Below, piece by piece: positions 1,731 to 62,600 of a stretch of 64,000 nucleotides of DNA; position 1 is the stretch's first letter; every line of letters starts with the position of its first letter. The translations under genes and the position numbers were made by a program. The notes beneath the pieces are model-generated. The model did not search any database and was not told where the DNA came from. It worked only from the letters and a program-made list of their open reading frames with translations. The stretch spans positions 27,659,370 to 27,723,369 of the forward strand of contig OX465102.1 of assembly GCA_949987565.1 (NCBI GenBank), given 5' to 3'. Source of the stretch: Luidia sarsii (taxonomy: Eukaryota; Echinodermata; Asteroidea; Paxillosida; Luidiidae).

Positions 1731-2634
1731 TTTTTTTATTGCTATTAAAGAGATGTTTTGCGGTGACACCTTTTGAGCGTATCGCTTTTGTGAGTTAGAT
1801 AAAAAAATGCGGGATCTTGATCCGCCTTTTCCCAAAACAGAGGGGAACGCGGTCTATGTGTCATTCTGAAGACCCACAACAGAGATAATGTGACATGGTG
1901 TCACCGCAAACCACTTTTGACCTTCTACCTCCACAATGACATTTCATGGTTGTACGCATGTGTTACTTTTAAGTCAAAATATGTTCTTTCTCTGTCTCTC
2001 TGCCTCACCAACTCTCTCTCCCCCTCCCCCCCTCTCCCTCTTTCCCACCCCCCCCCCCCTCTTTCTCTCTGGCTGTCTGCCGTCTCTCTCTCTCCCTTTA
2101 CTTCAACTCCCCCTCTCTCTCTCTCTCTCTCTGTCTCTCACTCGCTTACCATATCTTTTTCTCTGTCATTGGCTCTGTTCGCCTCTCTCTTTGATCCCCC
2201 CTCTCTCTGACTCTCTCGCCGTCTCTCTCACTCTCTCACTCTCTCCACCCCTCTCCCTCCCCTCTCCCCACTCCCTCTATGTCTCTGTCTCGTCTACTGT
2301 CTCTCACCGTCTCTCTCACTCTCATCACCCCACTCCCCCTCCCCTCACTCTTTCTATGTCTCTTCCCCTCTCTTTCTGTCTGTCTCCTCCACTGTCCCTC
2401 ACCGTCTCTCTCACTCTCCCCACCCCTCTCCCTCCCCTCTCTCTCACCTTTTCTCTGTCTCTTCCCCTCTCTTTCGTTCTGTCTCCTCCACTATCTATCA
2501 CCGTCTCTCTCACTCTCTCCACCTCTCTCCCTCCCCTGTCCCTCACTCTTTCTCTGTCTCTTCCTTTTTCTTTCTTTCTGTCTTCTCCACGGTCTCTCTC
2601 ACCCCGTCTCTCTTTCTCTTGTTCTACCTTGCAG

Positions 2635-2680
2635 AAGGAGGATGTTGCGATTGTGCGTTATGCCGCTGTCTGAAACGCCA
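2635..2680 (+). pseudogene. Decoy copy 1 of the start of M6 exon 2
   Basis: The polypyrimidine tract and TTGCAG acceptor are followed by 44 bases nearly identical to the start of the real exon at 3440, coding GGCCDCALCRCLKR. The sequence then falls straight back into CT repeat. There is no donor site within reach, so splicing here would read into low-complexity sequence. One base differs from the real exon before position 40 (GAT for GAC). Confidence 0.85.
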
Positions 2681-3026
2681 CCCCCTCCCTGCCCTCTCCC
2701 TCACTCTTTCTCTGTCTCTTCCCCTCTCTTTCTTTCTGTCTTGTCCGCTCTCTCTCACCGTCTCTTTCACTCTCCCCACCCCTCTCCCTCCCCACTCCCC
2801 CTCTCTTTCTTTCTGTCTCCTCCACTGTCTCTCTCACCGTCTCTTTCACTCTCCCCACCCCTCTCCCTCCCCTCTCCCCCTCTCTTTCTTTCTGTCTCCT
2901 CCACTGTCTCTCTCATCGTCTCTTTCACTCTCCCCACCCTCTCCCTCCCCTCTCCCCCTCTCTTTCTTTCTGTCTTCTCCACGGTCTCTCTCACCCCGTC
3001 TCTCTTTCTCTTGTTCTACCTTGCAG

Positions 3027-3072
3027 AAGGAGGATGTTGCGATTGTGCATTATGCCGCTGTCTGAAACGCCA
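3027..3072 (+). pseudogene. Decoy copy 2 of the start of M6 exon 2
   Basis: This has the same structure as the block at 2635. An intact CTTGTTCTACCTTGCAG acceptor is followed by about 44 bases of exon, with GTGCAT for GTGCGT (Ala to His at that codon), then CT repeat. It lies 392 bases after copy 1 and 413 bases before the genuine exon. Confidence 0.85.
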
Positions 3073-3439
3073 CCCCCTTCCTCCCCTCTCCCTCACTCTT
3101 TCTCTGTCTCTTCCCCTCTCTTTCTTTCTGTCTCGTCCACTCTCTCTCACCGTCTCTTTCACTCTCCCCACCCCTCTCCCTCCCCTGTCCCTCACTCTTT
3201 CTCTTTTTTTCCCTCTCTTTCTTTCTGTCTCTTCCACTGTCTCTCTCACCGTCTCTTTCACTCTCCCCACCCCTCTCCCTCCCCTCTCCCCCTCTCTCTC
3301 TTTCTGTCTCCTCCACTGTCTCTCTCATCGTCTCTTTCACTCTCCCCACCCCTCTCCCTCCCCTCTCCCCCTCTCTTTCTTTCTGTCTTCTCCACGGTCT
3401 CTCTCACCCCGTCTCTCTTTCTCTTGTTCTACCTTGCAG

Positions 3440-9400: not shown

Positions 9401-11649
9401 TGATTTAATGTCTGCATGGGTCTAGTTATATTCATACGTCCTGACTGTTTATAAATTCAAAATCAAGCGTTCCTAAAGATATAACAACAAATAGCTTTAT
9501 ACAATATTGCCATCTCTCTAACGTTGGATTTCTTTTGAAGACACATTTCGAAGTTATACACTGCAGCGTGATCACTCGTTATTAAAGCATCGCTCAGGAT
9601 GATTTCGAAGCCCGTGACCAGTCCATCGATTTGACTGGGTTTAATTTAAATCCTGCTTTGAAAACGGGGTGAGACAGGTGCCCTATATATCCCAACACGC
9701 CTTCCCCTTTATCGTAGAAGTGTGTAAACCTCTGGCGCTTACACGACACGCCAGTAGTGTTATGTCAGCTTGGGCAGCCAGGGGAACCAATTTGGCTGAA
9801 CTCTTGCACACCGTACCCGGGCGATGCACATGGATTTATACAGCCTACCACAGACACGAGCTTGATGGCTGAGGACCCTTATCATCTGTGTTATTTTGTT
9901 CACAGAACGGGAGCATTTGGTTGTCTTCGTTCTTGGCCATGGCTGCATGCGTCATGGTTGTCGTTGCCTTGGTAAGCATTCTCATTTGTTTTCAATGTTT
10001 TGGGGCAGCAAATGATTTCTCATAGTCATGCGTATGTGTATTGTAATATATTTTTTGTTCACTCTAATCGATACATCCTTCCAGGATTTTGTTTGATCAT
10101 ACTCATCATCCTTCACATCCTCCACATCAACATTCTACTCTCCGTCCTCCTCAACACATCCTCATCTCCCTCATCCTCTTTGTCCTAACCCTTCTCATCA
10201 GCCTTGCCTCCGCCTCCCCTCCGCCTCCCGTAGTCTTATCATCCTCCTCCACAGCCTCCTCCTTGTCATCCTCCTCCCCAGCCTACCCCTCCTCCTTGTC
10301 ACCCTCCTCCCAGGCCTCCTCCTTATCATCCTCGTCCTCAATCTCCCCTCCTCTTTGTCATCCTCGTCCTCAGCCACCCCCTTCTCATTGTCATCGCCCT
10401 TCTCAACCTCCCCCTCCTTGTCATCCCCCTCCTCAGCCATCCCTCCATATCGTCCTCCTCCTCAGCCTCCCCCCTCCTTATTGTCTTCCTCCTCAGCCTC
10501 CCCCTCCTTGTAATCCTCCTCCCCAGCCTCCTTGTCATTCTCCTCCTCAGCCACTCCCTTCTCCTTGTCACCCCCCTCCTCAGCCTCCTCCTCCTTATCA
10601 TCCTCCTCCCCTGCCTCCTCCTTATCTTTCTCGTCCTCAACCTCCCCTCCTCTTTGTCATCCTCCTCCTCATCAGGCTCCTCCTTATCATCCTCCTCATC
10701 CACCCCCTCTTCCTTGTCATCCTCCTTCTCAGCCTCCTCCTCCTTATCATCATCCTCCCCTGCCTCCTCCTTATCTTTCTCGTCCCCAACCTCCCCTCCT
10801 CTTTGTCATCCTCCTCCTCGTCAGCCTCCTCCTTATCATCATCCTCATCCACCCCCTCTTCCTTGTCATTGTCCTCCTCAGCCTCCCCCTCCTTATCATC
10901 CTCCTCCTCAGCCTCCTCCTTATCTCTCTCGTCCTCAACCTCCTCTCCTCTTTGTCATCCTCCTCCTCATCAGGCTCCTCCTTATCATCCTCCTCATCCA
11001 CCCCCTCTTCCTTGTCATCCTCCTCCTCAGCCTCCTCCTCCTTATCATCCTCCTCACCAGCCACCCGTCTTCCTTGTCATCCTCCTCCTCGGCCTCCTCC
11101 TTATCATCCTCCTCACCAACCTCCCTCTCCTCCTCAGCCACCCCTCCTCCTCGTCATCCTCCTCACTAGCCTCCTCCTCAGCCACCCCTCCTCCTCGTCA
11201 TCCTCCTTACCAGCCTCCTCCTTATTATCCTCCTCCCCAGCCACCCCCTCTTCCTCCCCTCCTCTTCCTCCTCATTAGTTACCCTCGTCATCACCCATTC
11301 TCCCACTCCTCCCCTTCTCCTCTTCCTCCTCCTATAATCAGCAATTCTCAGTCCGCTGCGCGATGAAAGCCTCAGCATGTTTGCCCACAACTGTCGGCTC
11401 CATGGCCGCGCCAAACCAACCACCCCCCCCCTCCTCCGTCTTCGTCCCTTACGAGCCGGATAATGTCGATTCCGCCAACAGATTCATTTCCTGATGTCCC
11501 TGTCTGCCAATCACACCTACCAGAAGATGCTGAGCGGAGACCAGCCCACCCGCAGTAAGTACGGTAATGACTACCGCCGGGCGTACGGCGACGCCGACAT
11601 GCCCTTGCAGGAGCCGCTCAATATTCACGACGAGTGCACGCGATTCTGA
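3440..11649 (+). CDS. Proteolipid protein PLP/DM20/M6 family, four-transmembrane (6 of about 7 coding exons)
   Basis: Exons, with GT-AG junctions and joining phases: 3440-3629, 5944-6103, 7752-7893, 8789-8871, 9906-9971 and 11482-11649 (TGA). They sum to about 269 codons, close to the roughly 278 residues of vertebrate M6. Exon 3440 opens with a Cys cluster (GGCCDCALCRC) like the palmitoylated N-terminus of PLP/M6, then TM1. Exon 5944 holds TM2 and the LNTCGR loop. Exon 7752 holds TM3. The second extracellular loop keeps the four family cysteines (SYCKN, ACID, LCGL, FCER) and has an NTT glycosylation site. Exon 9906 is TM4 and the last exon starts IHFLMSLSAN, like HYLMVLSAN of M6. The first visible exon needs one preceding base, as in vertebrate PLP genes, where exon 1 holds little more than the ATG; that exon was not found. 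Expected role: tetraspan plasma-membrane proteolipid of neurons or glia. Confidence 0.93.
3630..5943 (+). other. M6 intron, nothing recognised
   Basis: A 2.3 kb intron between coding exons 3440-3629 and 5944-6103. It starts GTAAGC and ends TTTTCCAG. No repeat family, RNA gene or conserved open frame was recognised in it. Confidence 0.6.
6203..6313. mobile_element. Perfect palindromic pair of PLE tails with hammerhead-like arms
   Basis: The left arm, AAAATTTAGTGGGCCTGACG onward, is followed by its near-exact reverse complement around a centre at about 6257. On the + strand the right arm gives GCCT (6261-6264), core TTGAGAA (6265-6271), stem GGTCCT/AGGATC (6273-6287), GAAACGTC (6288-6295) and AGGC (6296-6299). 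AGGC pairs with the initial GCCT. This is the layout of a type I hammerhead ribozyme with minimal stem III. Confidence 0.8.
6466..6595. mobile_element. Decayed copy of the GGTTTGCGGTGACACCATGTA fold-back family
   Basis: ATTTGCGGTGACACCATGTA at the left is followed by TCCACTCGACGTCTCGA, a mutated version of the hammerhead strand at 59440. A degenerate ATGTTGTCACCG lies at the right. It sits inside the second M6 intron. Confidence 0.6.
8495..8552 (+). mobile_element. Decayed PLE tail
   Basis: AAGAAAGGTCCCGATCGAAAC followed by CCAGACGCCCTAAAG is a short, mutated copy of the tail motif. It lies in the M6 intron just after an A-rich stretch (8343-8440). Confidence 0.5.
9027..9279. mobile_element. 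Short MITE with TGTGACCCGGCACA inverted ends
   Basis: TGTGACCCGGCACA at 9027-9040 and its exact reverse complement at 9266-9279 enclose an AT-rich interior. The GAGGAAT/ATTCCTC subterminal pair extends the inverted repeat. About 253 bp, non-coding, inside the M6 intron. Confidence 0.7.
10088..11340. repeat. CCT/CTC-rich minisatellite in the last M6 intron
   Basis: About 1.25 kb of almost pure pyrimidine on the + strand, with degenerate units such as CCTCCTCCTTATCATCCTC. It ends about 140 bases before the last M6 exon at 11482. It has large open frames on both strands (Ser/Leu/Pro-rich on +, Arg/Glu-rich on -) that reflect composition only. Confidence 0.9.
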
Positions 11650-20406: not shown

Positions 20407-20600
20407 TTAAGTGGAAGGTTTGCGGTGACACCATGTATCTCTTCTCTCAAGAAGTGTGGCTCTGAAAAGAGCCGGTATCTCGGTAAGAGTTACCGGCTCT
20501 TTTCAGAGCCACACTTCCTGAAAAAGAGATACACGGTGGCACCACAAACCTTTCACTTAGGTATTTCCCACCACGCAAATCTTCAAAGTCTTATCCAATT
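20407..20600. mobile_element. Fold-back element, GGTTTGCGGTGACACCATGTA family (no ribozyme core)
   Basis: GGTTTGCGGTGACACCATGTA and the inverted GTGGCACCACAAACC flank a palindrome built on AAGTGTGGCTCTGAAAAGAG and its complement. The outer GTATTTCCCACCACGCAAAT motif, shared with 23800 and 24626, follows. It lies about 1.2 kb downstream of the OFD1 stop codon. Confidence 0.75.
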
Positions 20601-31372: not shown

Positions 31373-34300
31373 CTGTGGAAATGATAGCACGAATGAAAAA
31401 AGCATGCATCTAGGATCAGCTAGTTCCATCAAACTAGAGGTCTCAACCCGATAGTTTACATTTTTTGGAAGGCCGCTATCTAGGGGCTGGGGGCTGCTAG
31501 GGGCTGGATACCTCAGGTGGTAAGAGTGCTGGTCCAGTAAATTTTTCTTTGCAATTTCCACGATTTGCTTAAGTATGTTTGCTTGAAAAGCTGTTATCTA
31601 CTTTGTGTGATTCAAGAACTGCTGCAGCCAGGATAACAATGAATTGTTGCTTGCATCCGAATGAAAACAAGGGCATGATCCCTGGATATATGAGGCAGTC
31701 AATGGGTAAATGCTTCTCAAAGATCAAAGCTTCTGCAAAAGATGCTTGTAGCTGTCATTTTGGGAAGCCCCCGCCTTTTCACAAAGTCCAGAGAGTTTTC
31801 CTTTCTTTTGTTTGCTTTCATTTGGAAACAGTTAAAAATCACCGGATGCATCTCAACTGGCAAATCAAAGCAAAAATCCTTGTTCTTACCACTTCCGGTT
31901 TTTATTTGTTATTTTGTTGACAAATTCTGTCGTCAACTTTTTGAAAAAGTGTGCAATTTGCTAATTACGATAATTACTAAAATATAAGGCTGAAAAATTT
32001 AACTAACGTTCAAAGCACTACTTTCAAATTGTATCTTTACAGATGGATTTGCCAGTTTCTGAAAATAGCTGATGATGAGAAGAAAAAAAAGGCTGATACA
32101 GGCAGTATATAATAACACTGTGTCCGAGATTACCTTGCAGGCGATCTTTGGGCCTTCGCAGACCTCCGGTATACCTCATTACTCAGAGCTTGCTGAGTTT
32201 GCCTCAACGTCTGTCTCAAATCGCTCATCTCTTTAGCCATCTCTCGCATTTGGGTCGACTGATCTTCTAGCTGTCTCCTCAGCTCCTTGTTGTGCTCACG
32301 CTATGAGGGAATATAACATTCATCAGCCCTGGGTCGACTCAACCGATGCATTAGAACAATGTACAAAAGCATTGCAAACTCCTCACTGAATTCTTTATGA
32401 ACAAAATGTACACAAATACACAGGTCCTGACCTTTCGATCTTTCTCAAAGGCAAACATTTGCCTGGATCTGGACTTGAACTTAAGACCTTTGGCTTAAAG
32501 TATCGGGTGCCATTCATTCAAAGCCAGAGGCCTCGGGTTCATGTCCCGATCCAGTCAAATTTCCTTGGACATTTTTCCCTCAAAAAAAGGAAAAACTGTC
32601 CAAGAGTTCCCAGAGTTGTTTCCTTGAGTTTGATTCTTGATTGTGATCCATGACCCATGATCTACCTCATTCTGCAGACTGGCTCTATGCTGGGCTTCTT
32701 TGTGCTGAAGCAAATTCCTCTCTTGTTCCAGCTGACACTTGGTTCTCTGCAGTTCCCCGTGTAGCGTCACAGTCTGGGCAGAGGGCTGAGAGATCTTCTC
32801 TGCCATGGAGGTCAGCGCCTCCTCGTGTCCTGTGACGAAGAATAGTTTGGACAACAATCGATATGAATTGATTTCACTCTCTGTGGGATGAGAGCTCCTT
32901 TAAATGCCCACTTGGTCCACTCCAGAGAGTTCTACGGTGCTAGCAAAATTTATCGCAAACCATCAACTTCTGCATTATAACACTTGAGTGCTTGCCTACT
33001 TTAACACATTTTGGAGGGCCAGTTTTTAATGTGTTGTTGTCAACAACCAAAATATACGTAGAAGATAGTCATTTTCATTCTGTGAAATGTGGGCCCTCAT
33101 TACGGGTTTGATCAAAAGGATGGTTGCATAAAGATGAGGACCAGGGGATACACTGAGTTGCTAACTTACTTGCCCTCTCAATCTTCTGTTCATTGAGAAC
33201 TTCTGCCAGTCTCCTGTTGATGAATTAAAGGCACAAACACATCACATTATATACACCAATATGCAGGATTAAGAAGACTTGGATTTGAGTCAAAAAAAGT
33301 CCAAGTTCAAATTTGAGTCACAGAAGTCTGCGTTACATCTTTCGAGTCAGAGTCCTGATTTTTTTATAGAGCGAGGCTTTTCGGGCCGAAGCAATTGCCA
33401 GTGCTCACAGAGTTCGCAGGAACTTGCCTCCTGGTCCCCTGACACTTCATGCACTCATGGTGATCACTGTACTCAGCGTTCTAGCCAGGCATCAAATAGT
33501 GTACCGGCCCGAAAACGTTATCGAAAATTCCCGACACGCTTTAAGTCTGCTCTGGATATTCACCGTTTTTCATTGTGCAGCTCCTGCCTCATGACGGCGT
33601 TGTCTTCTTTGATGGAGTGGTAATCCATCATGTCCTTCAGCCTCTCAGCCAGGACCTCGTTCCGTTTGTTGACTGCTACAGAGTCGTATCTGGACTGCTG
33701 ATACAAAAGCTGTTGTGGACAAAGGAATTACACAAAAAATGTATACCTTAAAATTTAGTGGGCCTGACGTTTCGATCCTAGCAGGACCTTTCTCAAAGGC
33801 AGAGTGACAAGGACAAAACAGATACATGTACACGAAGGAAGGGGGGAGAGTGAATAGGACACGGATGAGAAACAAAGGACAAAGAGTGAAGCTGGTAGGG
33901 AGAGATCAAAGGGAAGGGCAAGCGGTGGGGTAGGGATTAGTGAGAGGAGGGGGAAAGATCAAAGAGAAGGGCAAGGAGTAGGGTAGGGATTAGTGACAAG
34001 AGGGGGAAAGATCAAAGAGATAAGTGTGAAGGACTGAACACAAAAGAAGGATTATCAGAAAGCTGCATGGTGTTAGTCATTACCCTCCTGGATGTTGAGA
34101 CCATGTGGTTGAATAGTCCGAAGACGCTTCATCCACATTTTCTCACGGCTAAGACGGACAGCATTACTACGGTGACCAAGTGATTCTATGCCCAGTACAC
34201 TCATATCTGATATCGAATGATCAGGGAGATTGAAGTGATACCCAACAGGGGTGTCCATTTTACCGGTTTTGATAGTAGACCTATGGCCATAGATCCGTTT

Positions 34301-37300
34301 TTTTAGGGTGTTTTTGGTCTCGCCAACATACTGAATATTAAAAACTCTACAAGAGATGAGGTATATGATGTTTGAGGTAGTGCACGTGATAGAGCAAGAG
34401 TCTCCTGTGCTTTTATTTTCAAGAGGCATTCGTGTAAAGAGAAGATTGCTGATGCAGTTCTGAGGTACAGATTAATGAGGCAAAGTTCCTTCACAGGAGG
34501 CCTAACTATGGCCCGATGGAATCAGACTGCTTTTGTTTATTGCCAATAAGGGCAGTGAAGAACTACATGTACATGATGTAGTATATACTATGAAGTATTG
34601 CAAATGAACAATGCTGAAATCACTAGTTCAGTCCACAGTCTGGCGAATATTTGGACTCGGAAATGTATTATAGAAGACTACAACTGAGGCATTCTTTGAA
34701 GTGTAAGGGATGTAGAAAGCTTACCTCTAACTCGTTGATCCTACTTTTCCTTTCTTTCACTTCCTCCCTGACATCAGTCAGTAATTCTTTCTCATTTTCA
34801 AGCTGACTTTGACTTTCTAACAGAAAGAAAATTATCAAAATTACATCATTATCAAATATGATATCTTGTACTTTTGATTCACTGAAATCAGCGACATCAA
34901 TTTCCGGTAGATGGGGAGCACACAACATCAAGTTTTCCCAAGTGAAAAAGTGGGAAGTCACATAGCAAAGCTAAAACAAAAGAGCAAAGATGTAATGTAG
35001 CACTGACAGTATTGGCACAAGTGTTGATACACATAAAAATGCACGACATACACAGATCTACTTTTCCTCTGTTAGGGCAATACCATAGAACTCTATAAAT
35101 AAACTAGAGTGCGCACTCATCGCGTGACGATAAGGGGACTGCGACGCCATTACCAAAGAGGTGCAAATGCATGGATCTCTATTGGGCAAACTAATCCCAA
35201 TTTTTTACAAAAGAAAGTAGGACATTAAAATTTGCCAATCCCTTGAGGTATTGATAGCCTTTCCTTTCATTACTAAAAACCATTTCTATAAACATTTTAG
35301 TTTCCGCATTCACAACCTTTCAGCTATACATACCTTTCCCCATTTATATCACGCGCGATTGCTACTGACATCCGGGCACTTCGAGCTGAAGTTGACCTCG
35401 TTGGTAATGGCGGATGTGCGTCCATGTCGGCACACGTTCGTACCGCATGTTGATAGGGGAGTGCGCAGTTTATTTATAGAACTCTATGGGGAATACTCAT
35501 CCACACTTACCTCTCAGTCTACTCTCCCTCTCCTCAATATCCTTGAGTCTCTTGGAAAGTTTGTCTTGTTGTTCTATTTCATACCTGCAATAAAGTCATT
35601 GATAAACAAATATCTCCTGACAGGACGCACATCAACCTGTATTGTCATAGTATAATATACATTGCACATTGTAACCAAAGCATTGCACATTGAGTACATG
35701 CATTGCGTTTGTCTTTTACATTCTTGTACTTGTTTGTGGCTGCAGATGGATTTGTCTATATGAACGAATGACCGGATAAATGGAATGGATGAATGAATTA
35801 ATAAACCAATCGATTAATGAATGAATGCATCTATGGATATATTAATTAATGAAATGGATGGATGAACCAATGACGGAATAAATGAATGAATGAATGAATG
35901 AATGAAATAAATGAATGCTTGAATGATAAAATAATGAATGAATGCTTGAATGATAAAATAATGAATGAATGATTGAATGAATTGACAAGATTTAGACAGA
36001 CTATTGACTAGACGGAGAGAGCACAATGTCCGAAGTGTTGAGTGAAAACCCACTGGTTCTTTTAAGAACCATACTCACTCACAAAATAGATTCTCGTACA
36101 TGGTGTCACTGCAAACCTATATTCTTTATGAATGATTTGGTGTACATGTATGAATGAGGTGATTGACAGTCCAAGGGACGGACAAATGACTGACTGACTG
36201 ACTAAACTGTGACTCACTGTCTAATGTGGTCCTTGTATCTCTTCTCATAACTCTCCTCCATCCTTGCTAAACTCCCTTCCCTCATCTTCAAATTTTCCTC
36301 AATTCCTTTCCTTCTGTTCTCTTCGTTGCTCATTGCTCTGCAAGAGAAATGCGAGTGCATTCAGTCATTCACGAAATGTTATCAATGTGGGGATTCAATG
36401 AGGAAACTACACCAGCACACCGCTAGGGACCTAGTTTTTCTTTTAGAATACACTTTAAAAAAATTCTACAATCAACTGTTGATAAAAACCAACAATTGGA
36501 AAGACATGAATGGTTAATTCCTACATGTACATGTACCACAAACATAAAATAACAATGTAAGTTTGCCATAAAAAACATAATTACTATGCAGAGCTGAAGA
36601 TAATTTTTCAAAGAATTACTCCATTAAGCAGACACTGGAATAACCACTTACCTTTTATTGAGCTCAGCTTCTCTCTTTAGCTCCGACTCTTTCTGTTTCA
36701 GAGTCTGCAACTCCTCAAGAAGACTTTGTCGCTGGGAGTACGTTTCACGCTCAACCATCTGCAAGATTTGGGGGGTTTCACATTAATGTAGCATACAAAA
36801 AAAGGGTTCACAGTATTTTTGTCAAACAAAGATATGTCTAGAAATCCATAGATGCACATCACATACACCTGCATTTTGTAAAGCATTGCATTCTTTCTAG
36901 ACTTCAGCCCTGTCCCACCGACACAATTTTCCAATTTTTGTTCGCCTTTGTGTTCAATTTAGAAGTAGAAGTAAATACAAAAACGGTTGCAAGCTGCTCA
37001 CTGACTAAAATGACCTGCAATACATAAATCTCAAGAGTTAGAGGGCCTGACGTTTCGATCCTAGCAGGACCTCTCTCAAAGACAAAAGTGATTATCACTT
37101 TACCTTTGAGTAAGGTCCTGCTAGGATCGAAATGACAGGCCCTCTAACCTTGAAATTTAGAAGTAACTATAAAAGCTTTTGCGATTTTTACCACAAGATA
37201 TACAGTAGTTGGTAGAGTGCTGCAATCTTTTCTCAATGATTTTGGGCTGAACTGATTCTTCCTCTATCACACAACAAAAATGTTGCAAACTGCTTACTGA

Positions 37301-45315: not shown

Positions 45316-46684
45316 CTGCAGACAAAACACACTGAAAGCTGAACTGAAATCTGCCGGTCTATTGTTCTTTGAGTTTGGCAAATCATTTTAATTTTTACAG
45401 TTAGACAAATAAATTGTCAACGAAATGCCAACATGCCAACAAAATGCCATTGCCAACATGCCAACAAAATTTGTCAACAAAATGCAAATAACTTGTAGTT
45501 TTGTACTGTACTGTAGTGTTGTACATCTGATCTGTAAGTGTAACTCAGTTTACGTATCAATGTAAATTGTAATGTATCAACTTCAGTTCAACTTCAAGAC
45601 TAAAAATTTAACCGGACTTTGGGTACTTGCAATAACCATAACCCTCCGACCCTCGGGAGGATGAGAGTTACAGTTACCGCATGGGTAACCACTACTAAGT
45701 ACTAGTATAGTACTTGTACAAGTTGTAGTAGAATTTCGGCTACTTTCTAAATTCTACATAAACAATTAAGCCGCTCTATATTTTTTATTCTTATACTTAG
45801 TTATATAAGTTATAGCTCCATGCTATCTAGTCCGAACTTGGACCCGACAAGTCACCCTTTTTTTTATCGAATTTTGAAATTGTGACAGTCACCCGTCCCT
45901 CCAAATTTCAAAATTCGATAAATAAAGGGTGACTTGTCGGGTCCAAGTTACTCGGACTACATGCTATCCAAGTAACTAAATGTTGTAAAATTAATTCATG
46001 ATTTATATATCTCATAATTTTAATACTACTAGTATCACATTTGTATAACGAAGCTGAAACCTGGCCGTACTTAAGAATAAGACTAGTTTAGTAGTCAACT
46101 TCCAGTTAGTAGTTGTCAACATCGGAAGACTTGAACTAGGTTGAACACGTACAAGTACGTACGTACACGCTGACGTCTTTCGTCTGCCGCGGCAAGCAAG
46201 CAATGTTTTGATTTCAAATAATGTACGCGATTGAAGAAGGCTATTTATACGTTAACCGGATCGTCAACAACTGCATGTAATCTAACGTCTCGTCACAGAG
46301 TGGTGACATTGCTTCACTGTATAACCGGATGAATAGTTCCTTTGCTAATGTATGCCTACAGCCATAGAGGGCGCTATGTAGATCAATTGCCAAGCATAAT
46401 AATCATTAATAACTCTACTTCGAAAGCACAGCCCTGGCTCAGGCTCCGACTTTCACAAATAATAATCTAAAAATGAATCAATTAAAGTGGATAAAGCAGA
46501 ATTTTACCTGCTTATTTGGGATGAACAAATTATTTTGACAAAATTAGCAACGTTTCAACCTTCAAAGAAAAACAAGAGCGCCACCATAGACGGATACCCA
46601 CTCTTTCATAAAGAAAACGTGTACAGTTCATACGAGAATATTTCCGTAGAGTCTGGGAAGCGTTCATACATGCTGAGGTCCAAA
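45316..46684. promoter_or_regulatory. Head-to-head OFD1/NKRF intergenic region
   Basis: About 1.37 kb separates the divergent first recognised coding exons. It must hold the non-coding OFD1 first exon, probably in the CpG-containing stretch at 46130-46330, which also has a TGACGT half CRE at 46171-46176. No TATA box is obvious in a convincing place. Bidirectional transcription is inferred from layout only. Confidence 0.5.
45828..45959. mobile_element. Fold-back MITE inside the OFD1/NKRF promoter region
   Basis: ACTTGGACCCGACAAGTCAC and its complement GTGACTTGTCGGGTCCAAGT form an almost perfect 132-bp palindrome with TAGTCCGA/TCGGACTA ends. The inner arms are TTATCGAATTTTGAAAT and ATTTCAAAATTCGATAA. 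Confidence 0.85.
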
Positions 46685-48054
46685 ATGGCGTCGAATGAAA
46701 TCACGAACGAGATGGAAGCGTTCTTAGAAGAACACCACCACAAATACGAGCCAGATCAGCACTGGAAAGCACGAAAGCAATTCATGGTGGATAACTGGGA
46801 CCGTTTCTCTGGAAACCAGCTAGTCTCGTTGTCCATGGTGTGGTCAAATATCGAATTTGATGGAGCAACGTAAGTACGACTGGCTTACTGCACTCTGCAG
46901 TACTGGCTGCGTTGCAACGCTTGCGCGCACATGATCACGATGTACAATGTAGTACATATTGCACTGCAGTGCAGTAATCACTTTTATATCACTGCACTGT
47001 AGTAGTAATTTCTAAAATTTAGTGGGCCTGACGTTTCGATCCTAGCAGGACCTTTCTCAAAGGCAGAGTGACAAGGACAAAACAGATACATGTACACGAA
47101 GGAAGGGGGGAGAGAGTGAATAGGACACGGATGAGAAACAAAGGACAAAGAGGAAAGCTGGTAGGGTGAGATCAAAGGGAAGGGCAAGGAGTGGGGTAGG
47201 GATTAGTGACAAGAGGGGGAAAGATCAAAGAGAAGGGTAAGGAGTGGTGTAGGGATTAGTGACAAGAGGGGGAAAGATCAAAGAGAGAAGTGTGAAGGAC
47301 TGAGCACAAAAGAAGTATCAGAAAGCTGCATGGTGCTACTGCTAGTCATTACCCTCCTGGATGTTGAGACCATGTGGTTGAATAGTCCGAAGATGCTTCA
47401 TCCACATTTTCTCACGGCTAAGACGGACAGCATTACTACGGTGACCAAGTGATTCTATGCCCAGTACAGTCATATCTGATATCAAATGATCAGGGAGATT
47501 GAATAATTTCCGTAAATACCCGGATATAATGCGCACCCGTTGGCTTCTGTATGATGTCTGATATATGGCAGGACCCATGTATAATGCGCACCCCCAACTT
47601 TTGATTTCGACCGAGAACGGGTTGACGAGCCGAGTTGGGGTGGCCATCTTTGATTTGAAACTGCATGACGTCACGATGTGCAGGCAGGTCCGGGTGCGGA
47701 GTTGTTTGCGGAAGTGTGTGTGCGCGCTTGCATATGTTGAGCCCTACGACTGTTTCCTGAACAGCAGTGCAAAGCTACGTCCGGGACGTTGCACCGTGCG
47801 CACACACTTCCGCAGACCTCTCTGCACCCGGACCTGCCTGCACAAATCAAAGATTGTATTCGTATTTTTTTGTCGGCCAGGGTTAGGGTTAGTTGTATTT
47901 CGGAGAAACTTCGTTCTTGCTCATTGTCTTTTGTGTCAGAGACTCGGAATGTGTCACCCACTTTGATTTTGCTTACACTTCACTTGTCTTCAGGTACCAA
48001 CCAGAGTTAATGGTCAGAGTTAAAGAAATGGCAGCAGGGATCAGCATGGATTAG
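46685..48054 (+). CDS. Putative CDKN2AIPNL-like short isoform (XTBD only) using an alternative last exon
   Basis: The first exon 46685-46869 can splice to 47994-48054 instead of 48739. The acceptor is CTTGTCTTCAG and the phase is exact (AC plus G, Thr). The exon codes YQPELMVRVKEMAAGISMD then TAG, giving 81 residues. The NKRF exon at 48739 opens YPPALMARVKEMGQGIILD, so the two exon starts are paralogous and each completes the XTBD fold. An XTBD-only protein is what vertebrate CDKN2AIPNL is (116 residues, XRN2 cofactor). There is no transcript evidence here. The alternative is a dead duplicated exon, but its intact acceptor, phase and conserved residues argue against that. Confidence 0.7.
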
Positions 48055-50347
48055 TGGCAGACACACAAGAGAAGACACCCGAATCAAGCCCTCCCCCCCC
48101 CCCATGTGGTCCTTTGTGGATTGGGAATGGCTGGGACCAGATCTTGACCAGACTCAGTGCAGTCAAAATAACTTGGGGGATGGGAAGTTTTGGAACCTGA
48201 CCAATTTGCTGTAAAATCCCAGGTGTTTAATTTAAAGAAATCAAGGCTCTCTTACCACAAATAATCATACCACAAATAATCATATCAGATTACCACAGAT
48301 AATGTTAAGGAGGTGGAAAGCCACGGAACGACATCTTAACTAGGCAGCTCACAATTTCCCAGAGGCAAAACATTGAATGTCAATGTCAGTACTCAGTAGT
48401 ACTAAACTTTCAACAGTATGGCGGTTTTTCATTATGAGTTAGTTACCTACTCTGCGGTATTTATTCAAAGATCCTTTAGAAATATTGCGTGGGATAGGTT
48501 TGGGATTCATGGAGTAATTCTTAGAGAGCTTCTGCATTTACTGCACTATTCTTGGGAAGATCTGGTCCTAGCTGTGCCATTCACCCACATCGATCCTACA
48601 GCTTGGCATGAATGCAAGAATGAATCTACGATTCTACGTGCACATGTAGGAAGATGGACTGCAATCCAACGTACTGTAGTACACACCGGCTAAGGGACTC
48701 TGTATTAAAAAACTCTTGTCTGGTGTTCTTTGTTGAAGATATCCGCCAGCTTTGATGGCCAGGGTGAAGGAAATGGGACAAGGAATTATACTAGATGATG
48801 ATGAGGAAACAGCAGCATCCAGTACGCTTAAGCAATCAAACCAAGCACACACTAAGCCCAAGTCACCCTCCAGAGACTTGCAGCCAACCCACTGGAAGGA
48901 GCCGACTCAGTCGAGAAAGAGGAGTGGCGAAGTGGAGATCCCTCCTCAGACGAGCAAGAGTCTGAAGACTGAGAGGCATCAGAGCGCAAAGGAATGGGCG
49001 AGCTCAAGACACGAGTCTAAACGCGGCAGACAGACGGGGAGCAACGGCCAATCGGCATCCGCGAAGAGACCGCCGGCGTCGGTCACCTACGACAAAGTCA
49101 TCTCGGAGTTGGCCGCCAATCTGAGGAAGCAGAACGGCAGCAAGAGCGGCGGGTCTGCACTGCACAAGCTGCACAACGCCGGCGTCTGGCTGTCGCTCCG
49201 ACCAGAGGTGGAGTACGTGGAGGTGCCGCCAGCAAACCCGCCCCCCGTCAGGAGTCGGAGGAGGAGCCCCATGGCCAACCCGACCTGGATATGCAACCTG
49301 TACATGGGGGACACGCTCCTGGCCAGCGTGGAGGCCAACAACAAGCCCAACTCCAAGACGGCGGCGGCCGAGAAGGCAGTCCTGATCCTGGAGAGCTCCC
49401 GCTTTGTCGTCCAGAAATGTCAGAAGCGCAGCGGCGGCAAACGGGCCTACCAGAAGGAGGTGGTGCCGTCCGACGAGGCTCTGGACACGCCGCATTTCCC
49501 CATCAATCATCAGAACAAGTGCGGGGCCCCGTCGCCCACCGGCACCATGGAGAACTTTGTCTTGACGGAGCCCGACAAGCCCACTCCCTCCACCAGCATC
49601 CTGATCAACTCTGCGCAGAGCAACCACGTCCCCATCGTGTTCGAGACAGGCAACACCATCCAGACGGTGAACGGCAAGTCGGGGTTCGTCTGCACGACAA
49701 TCATCAACGGCGTCGTCATCGACATCGGTCTGCACATGAGCAAGAAGGAGGCGAGGAACGTGTCAGCGGACAACGCGCTCGCAAGTCTCCGTAAGACTTG
49801 CCCCACGCTGAGGAAGTCCGTCAGCAGCGCCCATGCCAGTGCCATCAGCCGCGATGAACTGGCCGCCGGAGCGTCGGCCGAGGAGAAGTCGGCAGTCATC
49901 GAGGGCTCCAACATCGGCCACAAGATGCTGAAGATGATGGGATGGACGGGCGGCGCGCTGGGCAAGGACGGCATCGTGGAGCCGGTCACAGCCAGCGGGA
50001 AGTTCACCCGGGAAGGACTGGGCTACAGCGTGCCCGTCCCCAAGAACAGCACCAACAAGATCGACATGAAGGCAGTCACCAACATCCTGCAGGACTACGT
50101 CCGCTCTGGCCGGCGCGACGATCTCATCTTCTCCTCGGAACTCTCCCAGGAGGAGAGGAAGGCAATCCACCTCCTGTGCCGTCGCTTCAATCTGAAGAGC
50201 CAGTCCCACGGCAAAGGCAGAGAACGCTTCCTGGTCATCAAGCAGAAGCGGAAACTGAGCGAGCTTGTTGAAGATATTGTCCAGAGTGGTGGCTCCTCCG
50301 GACAATACGAACTGGTCTCTCCTGGAACTCAAGAACCCTTATATTAG
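46685..50347 (+). CDS. NKRF: NKRF orthologue (XTBD, dsRNA-binding-like, G-patch, R3H)
   Basis: Two coding exons, 46685-46869 and 48739-50347 (TAG); AC plus A joins them in phase, giving 597 residues. The ATG at 46685 is chosen for its AAAATGG context and because XTBD homology starts just after it. XTBD (about 1-85): HWKARKQFM, SLSMVWSNIEFDG, then LMARVKEMG from exon 2. dsRNA-binding-like repeats lie at about 180-280 and 360-415. The G-patch at about 450-491 begins GHKMLKMMGWTGGALGKDG and ends FTREGLGY. The R3H-like region (about 508-567) contains ERKAIHLLCRRFNLKSQSHG. NKRF binds XRN2 through XTBD, activates the DHX15 helicase through the G-patch and acts in nucleolar pre-rRNA processing; it is also a repressor of NF-kB targets in mammals. 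Human NKRF is about 690 residues, also mostly in one exon. The gene is divergent from OFD1. Confidence 0.95.
46998..47503 (-). mobile_element. Second 5'-truncated PLE copy
   Basis: It matches 33748-34235: tail, purine/pyrimidine trailer with repeated GGGTAGGGATTAGTGACAAG blocks, and the last 50 or so codons of the GIY-YIG frame (C-terminal GLNIQEGND). Homology stops abruptly at about 47503. It lies in the NKRF intron, antisense to NKRF. Confidence 0.85.
47646..47855. mobile_element. GC-rich fold-back element in the NKRF intron
   Basis: GTGCAGGCAGGTCCGGGTGC at 47679 and GCACCCGGACCTGCCTGCAC ending 47843 are inverted repeats. They extend outward through ATCTTTGATTTG/CAAATCAAAGAT and inward through GCGGAAGTGTGTG/CACACACTTCCGC. 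It ends about 140 bases before the alternative exon's acceptor. Confidence 0.8.
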
Positions 50348-50394
50348 TTGCCCAGGACACTATACTTTACATTACAACTACCTAAGAATGGCAC

Positions 50395-50799
50395 TTAAAG
50401 CCCCTACACAACATTGGTAAGATCGAAAAACAGAAATGTTCACAGATTTACATGAAACTTCTAAATACAGTTTGAAGATGGTTATAAATAGTAGTTCCTC
50501 TCACTGAAATATTTCTGCCTAAAATGTTGTATTTTGGGAGAAATTAGTAAAAGAAATACATGTAGTTTACCGGTACATCTCACCGAGATCTAAACTATTT
50601 TTCGGAACAGTACGGTGTTGAATGCTGCATTTTCGCGAAACAAATGAACTAAATCAAGCAGTTTTCACAATTTTCTCGAGATTCGGTTGGCGGATTGAGC
50701 AGAAATGTTCACAGGTGTGCTATTTCATGCATTATGTTGGATCAGACAACATATGGATGCTATTCTTTGACCTCGACCAATGTTGTGTAGGGGCTTTAA
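50395..50799. mobile_element. TTAA-flanked MITE in the NKRF 3' UTR
   Basis: TTAA at 50395 and at 50796 flank AGCCCCTACACAACATTGG and its exact inverted copy, CCAATGTTGTGTAGGGGCT. About 400 bp, non-coding. It starts 48 bases after the NKRF stop codon, so it is likely transcribed as 3' UTR unless an earlier poly(A) site is used. Relatives lie at 305 and 56023. Confidence 0.85.
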
Positions 50800-55504: not shown

Positions 55505-56397
55505 ATTACATGAAGATCTGGTTAAAGCCCCTACACAACATTGAGTGGTGGCTCCTCCGGACAATACGAACTGGTCTCTCCTGGAACTCAAGAACCCTTA
55601 TATTAGTTGCCCAGGACACTATACTTTACATTACAACTACCTAAGAATGGCACTTAAAGCCCCTACACAACATTGGTAAGATCGAAAAACATAAATGTTC
55701 ACAGATTTACATGAAACTTATACAGTTTGAAAAAGGCCTGATAATACCATGTAAGCAGGACCTTTCTCAAAGCCATTCTGCCTTTTTTATGCTGGCCGGC
55801 CCTACATATATTTTTTGAGACTCGTAAAAAGAAAGAAAGAATGTACAAGTTGGGTATCATAATTATATGTCACTGCTTTCACCACTTCGCATAATTATTG
55901 CCACTCTAATTACTTCTTAAAATTTAGTGGGCCCGACGTTTCGATCCTAGCAGGACCTTTCTCAAAGGCAGAGGCACTCTAATTACAAAAGGCAGAGGCA
56001 CTCTAATTACATGAAGATCTGGTTAAAGCCCCTACACAACATTGGTAAGATCGAAAAACAGAAATGTTCACAGATTTACATGAAACTTTACAGTTTGAAG
56101 ATGGTTATATTAGAAACCTCTCACTGAAATATTTCTGCTTAAAATGTTGTATTTTGGGAGAAATGAGTAAAAGAAATAGTTTACGTCTCACCGAGATCTA
56201 AACTATTTTTCGGAACAGTACGGCGTTGAATGCTGCATTTTAGCGAAACAAATGAAGTGGTTTTCGCGATTTTCTCGAGACTCGGTTGGCGGATTGTGCT
56301 GAAATTTTCACAGGTGTGCTATTTCATGCATATGTTGGATCAGACAACGTATGGTTGCTAATCTTTGACCTCAACCAATGCTGTGTTAGCCCTTTCA
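55505..56397. repeat. Composite duplication: MITE copies carrying the NKRF 3' end, with a PLE tail
   Basis: 55505-55543 and 56003-56042 share a flank (AATTACATGAAGATCTGG) and a MITE start (TTAAAGCCCCTACACAACAT). The first is broken at 55543 by a copy of 50284-50475: the last 20 codons of NKRF, its stop, the first 48 UTR bases and the beginning of the resident MITE. A palindrome-less PLE tail lies at 55915-55970. The MITE at 56023-56397 is nearly full length but its right end is mutated (CAATGCTGTGTTAGCCC). Confidence 0.85.
55543..55606 (+). pseudogene. NKRF C-terminal fragment, duplicated
   Basis: The last 20 codons plus stop of NKRF (SGGSSGQYELVSPGTQEPLY) are repeated with no visible change from 50284-50347, detached from any upstream exon. 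The copy looks recent. Confidence 0.9.
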
Positions 56398-56681: not shown

Positions 56682-59600
56682 CTAACCACTGTCCGAGTCT
56701 TTGGGCTCCGTGTAGTAGAAGCTTGCTCGGAGAGGTTTTGGCTTGGGCACCTTGTCTATCTCTTCCTGAGAGGGGAAGTCAAACCGCTGGATACGCTTGT
56801 TCTGCATCTCAAGATCCTGTGCAGGGGAGACAAAATGCATCGCGTAATGTTATACAGCTTGGAAATACCTATGATGTGCTTGACAACAACAAAAAAACAC
56901 AAAAAAAAAACCCTGTTATTATTTTGTCATCAAAACATCAAAACAAATGTCAAAACTGACAGGTTGGAGAGGCGAGTCTTCATATCAGGTTTATCAAGTT
57001 CAGGGCATTGACAGGGTGGATCTTTTAGATTATCGTCAAAGAAAAATGAAATTCAATTTGACTAGACTTGGTCCACTGTCGGATATATATAAGACTCCTG
57101 TGTAGGGTTGGTGGAACTTGGGGATTGAAAAATACCCGGCTTACTATTGGCCTCCGTATGTTCCTGAGGATGTCCTCGTGGCAGGCCAGCATTCGTGCCC
57201 GTCCACGACCCACGGCTGGACTGGCCCTCTGCTGAGGTGAACGCTGATGACTGCCCGCATCCTGAGCACCGGACGGTGACTGGCATCCGGTGTCCTCCGA
57301 GGGCTGGCCAAAGGAAGACAAGCGCTTTCGCACTGCGCCCTGCGGTCTCAGCTCAGCACTCTCCCTATCCTTGTAGTACGTTCCCAAGCCTGAGCCCTTG
57401 GTCATCACGTCGGTCACATTCACGTGGTAGGCTGGCGAACTGCTCGACGGTGAATCAGAGACTGGAGCGGGTCTGCCGTGGCCCGGGTGCTTCTTTGGAT
57501 GTTTCCTCTGCATCTCGTGGCTGAGCTCTGGAAAGTCAGCGGTCGAGTGCACGTTCAGGCCCGACCTGTTGGGAGTGAGTGCTCCGCTGTAGCCTTGACC
57601 GAAGGGGTTGTGGCTGTGGGGGTTGTGGCCATGGGGGATGTGGCCGTGGGGGATGTGGCCGTGGGGGTTGTGGCCCTGGGGGTTGTGGCTGTGGGGGTTG
57701 TGGCCGTGGGGGTTGTGGCCGTGGGGGTTGTGGCCGTAGGGGTTGCCACTGCTTCTGTTTATGCTAGAAACCAGTCCTGGTGATGTCTGGTAGGTATCAG
57801 AAGGCAGCTGGGCGGTTGGGCTCTGACTGATAGACGAATGGAGACGGCTGTAAGCCTGTTCTAAAGTGGATTCATTAGATGTGGGTTGCTCACTGGAGAA
57901 GCTGAGGTAGCCCTCGGTTGACTTACTGTCCTCTGTACTGGTATCATAAACATCTTCCTCTTCCTCCTCATCCTCCTCATCCTCTTCCTCCTCATCCTCT
58001 TCCTCCTCCTGTTTGTCAACTTCATCACCATCATTCTTGTCATGGCTCTCATCTTCAACACCACCGGCCTTGTTTCCATTAATTTTAGTACCCATTGTGG
58101 ACTTCTGTTCCATGGAAGTGTTTCCGCAGCCAGTCCCTGTGCCTTGTCCGAGAGCTCCCCCTCCTGCTGATGGTGCCGACGCCAAACTGTCTTTGTCTCC
58201 GGGTTCTGCCTCGCCGTTGTCACCTGCGCCTCTCCCGCTCTCCTCCTCGGCGGCGGGTGCGATGACCCCATCGTCCCTGGCAACACGGGCACTGCCGCGG
58301 GTACGCCGGTCGCTTCCGCCGTTCGGCCTCGGGTATGCATCTGAGGCTGGGCGATTGTTCCCCGCAGTGTCATGGCCCAAGTTCGGGCAGGCTTTGTCCC
58401 CACTGGCAGCAGACTCACGGCCGTTGCTAAGTCTGTCCGCGGAGTGAAATGAAGCCGTCTGGTATCTGTCCTTCCCGTTAGTGGGGATGGATGCAGTAGA
58501 TGGTGGAGATTCTGGAATGCAACTGGTCTCTTCTTTTTCGGACTTGGGTTGCAGCACTGATTCTAGAAAAGGTATTGAATCAAATGATATTTTCAATCAA
58601 ACTAAGGAAAGGGAAAATGACTGGTTTTTTTCTGCAAACAATTTGAAAAATACTGAAACTTGTGACCTCTGGCTGAATGTACCAATGCTCCTACTATCTT
58701 ATTTATCCAGCTCAGGTGGTCTTTCTACAATAAGCCAACATGAAAGCAACTTGCGGTCATTTCAAACTTATCAACTGAGTTCCATTTCTTCTCCTCATCA
58801 AAAGGTGTAATGCAAGAAAACCCGGATATACAACACAGTGAGAATAAGGGACGAATTTTGGAGTGTTTTCATCTCGGTAGGCGATTGTGGTTTCTTGCCC
58901 GCACCTGTAAGCTGTGGATTGCAGCCAATGGCCGACGTACAGTGGTTGGAGATTGGCGGAACGCTGGTACTCGGTAAGGGGCCGAACACAAGCTTCTCTA
59001 GCTGTCTGGGAACCATTGACGGGCCAACCTTCCCGGGGAAGAAGAGAATGTGTATAGCATGTTATCAACTCAGAAGCAGACATTTTGTTATGTTTGTAAT
59101 ACAAGTGGTTATACGGTTAAGATGTACGGTATGCACTGGAAAGCAGGACGTGTACAGTTTGAAGCACGCTTGAGGTGACTATTTTTTTCACCAGGCCTTC
59201 TGACAAAGCGCAGACAATACATGCACACTGTTACTCATTCATAGAGTCGGCCAAATTGAATTTCATTTCAGCACACTACCTGCTGATATACGGATTCAAG
59301 TCCACCACACAAACTCAACAGCCAGGTGGTTAAGTGGTTAAAACATCTGTGCGAGAAAGTAGGAATCAACATAGGAAGGTTTGCGGTGAACACCATGTAT
59401 CAGGTCTCTTAAAGGAAGAGGTATGGTTCTGAAAAGAACCTGAGGGTAACTCGACGTTTCGACCAGTATGCTCTGGCCGTCATCAGGAGAATGTCTTGGG
59501 ATCGGTGGTCATCTCCTGATGACGGCCAGAGCATACTGGTCGAAACGTCGAGTTACCCTCAGGTTCTTTTCAGAACCATACCTCTTCCTTTAAGAGACCT

Positions 59601-62600
59601 GATACATGGTGTTCACCGCAAACCTTCCTATATTGATTCACCCACCATGCAAAGCCTTAAGTCTCATTTAAAGTAGGAATCGCTGGTTCATGCTCGACTT
59701 GCCTGTAGTTTTTCAGCAGTCAATATGCCAAAGCACTCGGCAGAGTTTTTAAATACAAGTACGTAAAGTTGACAAACCCTTACTGTATTTCATCCTCCTC
59801 AATGAAAAATATCATAGCAATGCACTATGTGCTGCTGTAAAGATTCAAATCCACCCCACGACCTCGACCAGCTCAGTGGTCAACGTGCCAAGATGTCTGC
59901 ACCAGGAAGCAGGAGACAATGGTTCGAATCCCGCCCAAGCTGTCTGCATCTCATCAGCAGGCAATCAGCCAAAGCACTGAGCATACAGCAATTCATTGAA
60001 AGTCGAGTCGGCCAAACCCTCATTGAGATACTGTCTCGCTGTAGGTCGAAACAGCCGATATCTCAGTAGCACTTTTACCTTTGCTTTGCAGCGACTCACA
60101 TCCGACATGTCTCTGACGCAACTCAAGAAGACGTCGACAGATGCCGTGAACTCGGCCAGGAGGTGGTGCAGCGTTACGATGCGCAAATCTGATAGATAAC
60201 GCACCCTGCCCGCAGCCCGTGACAAAAGACTGGCCTGTAGAGGGCGCTTTATCCATGAGGTGGAGGACTCACTCTAAAACCGTCAAAAAATCACAAGAGA
60301 ATCTTTTTGGAAACTGTCCACAGGTACTATTGACCAAGTAGCTCTCAACAAACCCAAAACGTTTACCGGTATGTAAGAATATTTGAAAAGGGTTGCATAT
60401 CATTTCAGCTATGCCACAGGAAATCAGTACACATATAATGCACTAACAATGTTAATGTGTTCCATTAGCTTCCCTGTTCTCCAAGTACAGTGTAAAACAA
60501 GGAGTCCTCTAATCTCTATGCAGTCTTGACGCCATGACACCAAATGACCCAGTGTGTGAATCAGGGTCATCGGAGGGTAAGCTAGGACTATCCAGGGAAC
60601 ATACTGTACTAGGGTGCGTTTTGGTGGTGAAAACCAATAACTGTTTGACTACATGTATAACATCACTTAGATTTTTGGCCAGACAATTTTAGTTAGGTGG
60701 GTGATGAAGTGAACACATTATCAAAGTGCCAAGGCAAATAAGAAGCAACAAATAAGTTCTTTGTTTTGCTGGCACAATGCACTCCTAGCCCAAAACGTTT
60801 TTTTTTTTTCATGGTTTCCAACCTCCCTATACAGACGTCTTACACAGGTTGTCTGGTTCCTAACCACCCTAAATACAGACTATACACAAGCTGTCCGGTT
60901 CCCAACCACCCTACATTGTAAATACAGACACTGTGCACAAGCTGTCTGGCTCCCAATCCCCCTCAATCCAGACACTGTATGCAGACAAGCTGTCTGGTTC
61001 CCTACCTCCCTACATTGTAAATACAGACACTGTGCACAAGCTGTCTGGCTCCCAATCCCCCTCAATCCAGACACTGTATGCAGACAAGCTGTCCGGTTCC
61101 CAACCACCCTACATTGTAAATACAGACACTGTGCACAAGCTGTCTGGCTGCCAATCCCCCTCAATCCAGACACTGTATGCAGACAAGCTGTCTGGTTCCC
61201 AACCACCCTACATTGTAAATACATGTACAGACACTGTGCACAAGCTGTCTGGCTCCCAATCCCCCTCAATCCAGACACTGTATGCAGACAAGCTGTCTGG
61301 TTCCCAACCACCCTACATTGTAAATACATGTACAGACACTGTGCACAAGCTGTCTGGCTGCCAATCCCCCTCAATCCAGACACTGTATGCAGACAAGCTG
61401 TCTGGTTCCCAACCACCCTACATTGTAAATACATGTACAGACACTGTGCACAAGCTGTCTGGCTGCCAATCCCCCTCAATCCAGACACTGTATGCAGACA
61501 AGCTGTCTGGTTCCCAACCACCCTACATTGTAAATACATGTACAGACACTGTGCACAAGCTGTCTGGCTCCCAATCCCCCTCAATCCAGACACTGTATGC
61601 AGACAAGCTGTCTGGTTCCCTACCTCCCTACATTGTAAATACATGTACAGACACTGTGCACAAGCTGTCTGGCTCCCAATCCCCCTCAATCCAGACACTG
61701 TATGCAGACAAGCTGTCTGGTTCCCAACCACCCTACATTGTAAATACATGTACAGACACTGTGCACAAGCTGTCTGGCTCCCAATCCCCCTAAATCCAGA
61801 CACTGTATGCAGACAAGCTGTCTGGTTCCCTACCTCCTCTGCCTTATCATGAAGCCACTGCGGATAGACTTCCTCGAGGGACAGGTCCAAGTACTCCATC
61901 AAGCACTCGGACAGACTCCTCAATTTCGGAGGCACTTCACCGTTCAACCCTCGCATCCTCACAAGAAAATCTGCTGCCTGCACAATCAAAAGTAAACGAA
62001 ACCCAAACACTCTCAAAACTTTGATATCATTGGACTTGATGCTCTCTATGGCCCTTTACAAATGTGTGCATCGGGCTTGGACTCAGGCTTCGTCTCCTGA
62101 AATTACAGGTTGTGGTTTATCACCGATTTTGTAGGTTTGTTGCCTTGTTATTAAGTGCAAAGTATTTACCACAAAACTGGCACCAAATGCTTGTTTCTAG
62201 ATGGCTCTGACAATTAAAATGGGCAAGAAAAATATCACCAAAGCCTAAGCCCGAGCCTAAGTCTTTATATCGTAACCAGCCAATGAAATAATTATGGTCT
62301 TCAGCTTATCACCATTTTGGGCTGTCATTTAGAAATGCAGCAGTATTACTGTAGAAGTGCCCTATTCATGGGAAGGGGCAGGTCTCACCTCACACTTAGT
62401 TCATGGAAGCCAAGAACACAAGCCTGTACAAGCCGTACCTGTGTGTCATAGACATTGGTGAGTTTCAGGGAATACCGGTGGAAGAGTTGGTCAGAAGCCC
62501 ATCTGCTGTCATGCATCACCTGGGTAGAGGAAATCAAAGTCCACATAAAATATGTTTGTGCCAGGTTTTGTGGTACCAGGCATAAAAAGACACCAACCAA

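Follow-up and report, generated by a model that had tools for sequence, protein, structure and literature searches.

One XTBD exon and two candidate last exons at a sea-star NKRF locus

Introduction

NKRF and CDKN2AIPNL are separate vertebrate proteins that share an XRN2-binding domain (XTBD). Here we describe a locus of the sea star Luidia sarsii in which one XTBD exon can be spliced to an ending of either kind. The locus occupies positions 46685 to 50347 of a 64,000-nucleotide stretch (GenBank assembly GCA_949987565.1, contig OX465102.1, positions 27,659,370 to 27,723,369, forward strand), which we call the window.

The closest described systems are human NKRF, CDKN2AIPNL and the Caenorhabditis elegans protein PAXT-1. 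In human cells, only NKRF with a whole XTBD returned XRN2 to nucleoli (PMC7054742). A short human NKRF retains just 11 XTBD residues (PMC7054742), so that in human too most of the XTBD comes from upstream sequence. Variants at the 5' end of human NKRF have been described as well, with no domain-ending exon among them in the part of the article used (PMC7054742). CDKN2AIPNL (C2AIL) is a small protein with the XTBD as its sole annotated domain, and the human protein can stand in for PAXT-1 in C. elegans (PMC10511037). In human it is encoded by a separate gene of three exons at 5q31.1 (PMC12867337). In PAXT-1, a tyrosine is critical for XRN2 binding (PMC10511037; PMC7054742), and Cys54 has been termed essential (PMC7054742).

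In the portions of the open-access XTBD literature that we consulted, we found no description of an XTBD exon shared by NKRF and an XTBD-only ending. Judged by title, literature searches turned up nothing relevant on NKRF in echinoderms or on alternative splicing of PAXT-1 or XRN2. Alternative last exons and intronic polyadenylation are, in general, well known.

Results

Two endings in the same phase

The first coding exon carries the XTBD as far as its critical tyrosine, which it excludes, and its one donor (after 46869, AAC/GTAAGT, the slash marking the junction) can be joined to two acceptors in the same phase, with the frame kept (Table 1). The nearer acceptor, at 47994, reads TTCAG/G, and the codons for YQPE follow from 47995; the farther one, at 48739, reads GAAG/A, and the codons for YPPA follow from 48740. 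The start codon is consistent with the N terminus (MAS...) of the Asterias rubens protein P0003, to which exon 1 is 73% identical. Joined to the 47994 exon, exon 1 is followed by 19 codons and a stop, which gives a predicted product of 81 amino acids with the XTBD as its sole Pfam domain. Joined to the 48739 exon, it gives a predicted product of 597 amino acids that combines XTBD (PF11952, 75.2 bits), double-stranded RNA-binding (dsrm, PF00035, 39.8 bits), G-patch (PF01585, 30.2 bits) and R3H (PF01424, 40.1 bits) domains in a single chain, each over its cut-off, which is the domain set of NKRF. An earlier note, made from the letters of this DNA alone, had proposed this layout; its coordinates (46685, 46869, 47994/47995, 48739/48740 and 50347) are correct to the base, and both the stop after 19 codons of the first ending and the NKRF-type product of the second stand as it described them.

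The same note held that the two endings start with paralogous sequence. We translated, in the phase that the join requires, the 19 codons that follow each AG of the window, whichever the strand, and scored their similarity to the long ending. Among the 8097 frames (mean -22, standard deviation 9), the long exon scored 97, the short exon 60 and the next best 15, which rules out a chance match and bears out the claim of one XTBD exon with two paralogous completing exons. The endings are identical at 38 of 57 bases and share 12 of 19 residues. Their 19 base differences are distributed as 2, 6 and 11 over codon positions one, two and three, a third-position bias with P of 0.007 by both Fisher and permutation tests, and 7 of the 12 codons for residues common to both differ synonymously. 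Nonsynonymous divergence (dN) is 0.24, and synonymous divergence (dS) is beyond the computable range, synonymous change being saturated. When random change of equal amount was simulated, at least 12 residues were kept in 0.2% of trials, and a stop was created in 48%. The flanks of the two endings are dissimilar, with 18/60 and 14/60 bases alike. This pattern suggests that the short ending is an old duplicate retained as coding sequence, with the reservation that 57 bases do not make for a strong selection test. A mobile repeat was rejected as the source of the 47994 exon: the stretch 47960-48400 is single in the assembly, and 47994-48738 has no second copy within the window at E 1e-3.

Either ending completes the domain. 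Exon 1 alone scored 52.4 bits against the Pfam XTBD model, and the score rose to 78.3 bits with the short ending and to the same 78.3 bits with a long-ending piece of equal length, so the XTBD is completed equally well by both; on its own, exon 1 most likely specifies only part of the domain. A gap-free alignment of residues 16-79 to the PAXT-1 XTBD (PDB 5FIR) places Tyr63, the first residue of each ending, on the tyrosine of the PAXT-1 motif GCEY.

Splice sites were ranked by splice-site matrices against all AGs and GTs in the window, both strands included. The acceptor at 47994 lies above 99.2% of AGs and that at 48739 at percentile 94.6, and the exon 1 donor lies above 98.6% of GTs. From exon 1 to the long exon, the only A[AT]TAAA hexamer stands 35 bases ahead of the 48739 acceptor and is followed by a T/G-rich stretch.

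Table 1. Coding exons and associated features of the NKRF locus, in window positions
Feature	Positions	Strand	Content
Exon 1, coding	46685..46869	+	First 61 residues plus two bases of codon 62; ATG at 46685
Intron, exon 1 to short ending	46870..47993	+	Holds a repeat copy and an inverted repeat, 47677-47844
Short ending	47994..48054	+	One base of codon 62, YQPELMVRVKEMAAGISMD, TAG; stop 48052-48054
Possible 3' untranslated region of the putative short mRNA	48055..48738	+	A[AT]TAAA occurs once, as ATTAAA at 48704
Long ending	48739..50347	+	YPPALMARVKEMGQGIILD..., dsRNA-binding, G-patch and R3H domains; stop 50345-50347

XTBD repertoire of the assembly

Searching the whole assembly (470.9 Mb, 227 contigs) with the Pfam XTBD model at E 0.001 gave one match over the cut-off, exon 1, out of 4 candidates scored. 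The fish CDKN2AIPNL protein P0001, with a limit of E 10, found only exon 1 (E 2.4e-4, 43% identity), and the search can therefore see an XTBD at that distance. With an 80-residue XTBD-only protein, P0119, as query, exon 1 matched at E 1.8e-11, and the short ending, at E 0.14, was the sole further match within a limit of E 1. The long exon gave a single match. We also looked within the window for a second XTBD-type first exon and found none. In the 471 Mb assembly, then, no free XTBD protein was detected apart from the putative short form, by a search that could miss an XTBD lying in an assembly gap, a very divergent one or one split by an intron.

Relatives of the two products

The three best matches of the long product come from Patiria miniata (P0002, 62% identity over 88%), Acanthaster planci (P0004, 57% over 88%) and Asterias rubens (P0003, 50% over 99%); the first two are named NKRF-like and the third an uncharacterized protein. 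The long endings of the window and of Asterias share 14 of 19 residues. The Patiria and Acanthaster records, NKRF-like "isoform X2," begin exactly at the first methionine of the long ending (48755-48757, residue 68) and are without the XTBD, and P0005 and P0006 likewise start at that methionine. Such XTBD-less records may represent genuine variants or may stem from gene models in which exon 1 was overlooked.

A three-sequence XTBD alignment, short ending included, retrieved 190 protein matches; of the best 120, most bear the names of fish CDKN2AIPNL or XTBD proteins. P0119 is among those retrieved. Its source is given as "lgn," which we take to be assembled public reads, and it comes from a contig of 1071 bases with 4 member sequences. 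Its ending, YQPELMARVKEMSAGIDM, is identical to the short ending, YQPELMVRVKEMAAGISM, at 15 of 18 residues. Across 19 positions, P0119 agrees with the short ending at 15, and with the long ending and the Asterias long ending at 12 each. The part of P0119 that corresponds to exon 1 is 48% identical to that of the window. If P0119 is a plain frame of its contig, it crosses the sea-star intron position uninterrupted, like a complementary DNA or an intronless gene. Viral contigs scanned with P0003 yielded 7 stretches that fit a pattern and 0 relatives, and plasmids searched with P0119 gave no match.

In an XTBD tree of 16 rows, which held no vertebrate NKRF XTBD, P0119 clusters with three sea-star rows (88/84, unstarred), apart from 10 fish-type rows (83/85), and P0010 and PAXT-1 sit on long branches. 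Six of the 10 fish-type rows are named CDKN2AIPNL, and the label of the other 4 is ours. The short product lies nearer to sea-star NKRF than to CDKN2AIPNL, largely through the exon 1 that it shares with the long product. The order of the endings was not recovered, and the tree cannot supply it because of that shared exon, the long branches and the missing vertebrate NKRF XTBD.

Structural inference for the window products rests on an AlphaFold model of P0119, built from 15 sequences. The model has a mean predicted local distance difference test (pLDDT) score of 84, falling to 51 over the last ten residues, and helices at 2-7, 16-29, 35-51 and 57-66, the last of them entirely inside the ending. 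Compared with five 5FIR chains, it gives template modeling (TM) scores of 0.90-0.93 when normalized to the target length and 0.78-0.84 when normalized to the length of the model, at 0.9 Å, with 36-38% identity to the PAXT-1 XTBD. By analogy with this model, exon 1 would encode XTBD helices 1-3.

Other features of the window

Several repeats lie in or near the locus. The repeat at 33749-34234 has a 94.5% copy at 47013-47503, inside the NKRF intron, and overlaps a GIY-YIG nuclease fragment at 34073-34471 on the minus strand (Pfam PF01541, 29.2 bits), perhaps from a Penelope-like element. Upstream of exon 1 there is a 138-base near-palindrome (45825-45962, 82%). Flanking the long exon on its 3' side, an element at 50395-50799 has perfect 24-base inverted ends starting with TTAA, and a related copy (87%) stands at 56023-56386. 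The stretch 50284-50476 recurs about 5.3 kb downstream at 55543-55731, a match that covers the final 64 bases of the NKRF frame at 100% identity and the 129 bases that follow at 96%; this second copy is a recent partial duplication of the 3' end of the NKRF gene.

Elsewhere, the window holds a tRNA-Ser (AGA) gene (1123-1198), a match to the histone mRNA 3' stem-loop (20433-20478, minus strand, 34.8 bits against a threshold of 34) and a 523-amino-acid open frame (57025-58596, minus strand) with Asn-Pro-His-Gly-His repeats and an acidic run, for which there was no Pfam match at E 0.01. An apparent long tandem array at 60713-62055 has three open frames, two on one strand and one on the opposite strand, and long CT-rich low-complexity stretches at 1900-3900 and 10000-11400 contain large frames that are apparently spurious.

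Discussion

What the genomic sequence holds is a pair of in-phase exons, a domain found in both predicted products, a coding-type divergence between the endings and one XTBD match in the assembly. This is probably a single sea-star NKRF gene whose alternative last exon gives either NKRF or an XTBD-only protein, so that one gene plausibly supplies both. We infer that both junctions are used, that a poly(A) site lies between the exons, that the products bind XRN2 and that they divide the labor between them. Under this reading, exon 1 would provide the first part of the XTBD, and the critical tyrosine, with the last helix as placed by the P0119 model, would come from whichever ending is joined. 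Splicing to 48739 would yield the 597-residue NKRF-type adaptor with its XTBD and RNA-binding domains, which, if it acts as human NKRF does, would recruit XRN2 to precursor ribosomal RNA (pre-rRNA) in the nucleolus. Splicing to 47994, in an mRNA that ends before or at the next acceptor, would yield the 81-residue protein, almost nothing but XTBD, and by analogy with PAXT-1 and human CDKN2AIPNL this form would be expected to bind, and perhaps stabilize, XRN2 without targeting it. If the ATTAAA at 48704 is used, cleavage there and splicing to 48739 would be mutually exclusive. We hold as doubtful the bolder proposal that a single gene makes up the entire XTBD repertoire of sea stars, its one XTBD exon giving a free XRN2 cofactor and a nucleolar NKRF adaptor through two competing endings, with an exclusive choice imposed by overlap of the short poly(A) site and the long acceptor, and that this is the state preceding the vertebrate split of CDKN2AIPNL and NKRF.

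A number of observations weigh against an alternative last exon. Support for both joins comes from the genomic sequence. The retrieval of P0119, though not its existence, was partly built in by a query that included the short ending. No named sea-star short form was among the best 120 of the 190 matches, and another search for one gave a single match, a fish; the same protein database does contain the long Asterias form. The position of PAXT-1 Cys54, encoded by exon 1, is Ala61 in both products (it is Ser in Asterias and Cys in P0119). The short ending shares 15 of 19 residues with the Asterias long ending, the same closeness as to P0119, so the duplication may or may not predate the sea-star lineages. 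Among the splice signals, acceptor-like intron sites at 47881, 47940 and 47049 outscore 48739, which makes the matrix a weak guide, and the best donor-like site between the endings, CAG/GTGTTT at 48223 (95th percentile), permits an internal exon. There is no AATAAA between the two endings, and the nearest one for the long form is at 51296. The ATTAAA at 48704 may itself be a chance occurrence; A[AT]TAAA occurs at 1.0 per kb, and of 127 such sites, 17 are followed by an equal or greater amount of G+T.

The donor-like 48223 and the weak poly(A) signal also belong to the main rival, a poison exon, in which the 47994 exon is internal (for example, 47994-48222) and spliced on to 48739. The stop would then lie far upstream of the last junction, the mRNA would be degraded or would give an XTBD-less downstream NKRF, and inclusion would tune the NKRF level. 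The Patiria and Acanthaster X2 records start at the point from which the longest frame of such an mRNA would be read, but those starts are accounted for equally well by an alternative promoter or by gene models lacking exon 1. A poison exon, moreover, requires only a stop and not 19 codons that keep the XTBD ending and its tyrosine; the Pfam fit of the short ending equals that of the long one, and P0119 is a free 80-residue protein with a matching ending. We therefore consider a poison exon unlikely. The kinship with P0119 also counts against a dead duplicate, in which the beginning of the long exon was copied in tandem and the copy fell out of use. Although selection tests on 57 bases are weak, the substitutions of the 47994 exon fall at third positions, it has zero internal stops at saturated synonymous divergence, and its acceptor is in the top 1% by the matrix, all of which leaves a dead copy highly improbable.

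A nested gene with its own first exon would agree with the separateness of the vertebrate CDKN2AIPNL and NKRF proteins and with the three-exon human CDKN2AIPNL gene (PMC12867337). However, searches of the window and of the assembly turned up just a single first exon of XTBD type, and the phase of the 47994 exon fits NKRF exon 1, so we give this arrangement very little credence. Some other use of the 47994 exon, such as an XRN2 decoy in a single tissue or an unseen alternative start, has nothing specific in its favor, and the in-frame stop of the short ending bars a longer fused protein; it too seems very unlikely.

If the alternative last exon is used, its choice would set, from one promoter, how much XRN2 is held by a free XTBD protein and how much goes to NKRF to process pre-rRNA. 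Its use would also offer a concrete route to the vertebrate XTBD proteins, by exon duplication inside one gene followed by gene separation; the shared exon may be ancestral to vertebrates or a trait of sea stars. The functions of human NKRF and of CDKN2AIPNL and PAXT-1 serve here as analogies for the two products and not as evidence about the sea star.

Set beside these systems, the long product has the XTBD, dsRNA-binding, G-patch and R3H domains in common with NKRF, and the sea-star NKRF-like records that start at the methionine of the long ending resemble the short human NKRF; the gene in the window differs from NKRF in an extra exon that finishes both the domain and the protein. The short product has in common with CDKN2AIPNL the small XTBD-only architecture, but it would come from the NKRF locus, through NKRF exon 1, where the human protein has a separate gene, and it stops at Asp81, whereas the 10 fish-type CDKN2AIPNL rows extend C-terminally past the XTBD. 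The label "CDKN2AIPNL-like," which the earlier note gave to the short product, thus holds for its architecture and fails for the fish-type C-terminal stretch and for a gene of its own; it denotes architecture, not demonstrated orthology. The XTBD of C. elegans PAXT-1 (5FIR) is the same domain with the tyrosine kept and with Cys54 replaced by Ala61 in the window products. P0119 combines the same XTBD-only architecture and a near-matching ending with a more distant exon 1 part. Compared with all of these, and in a genome in which no other XTBD was found, the new element is one XTBD exon that can serve both an NKRF ending and an XTBD-only ending.

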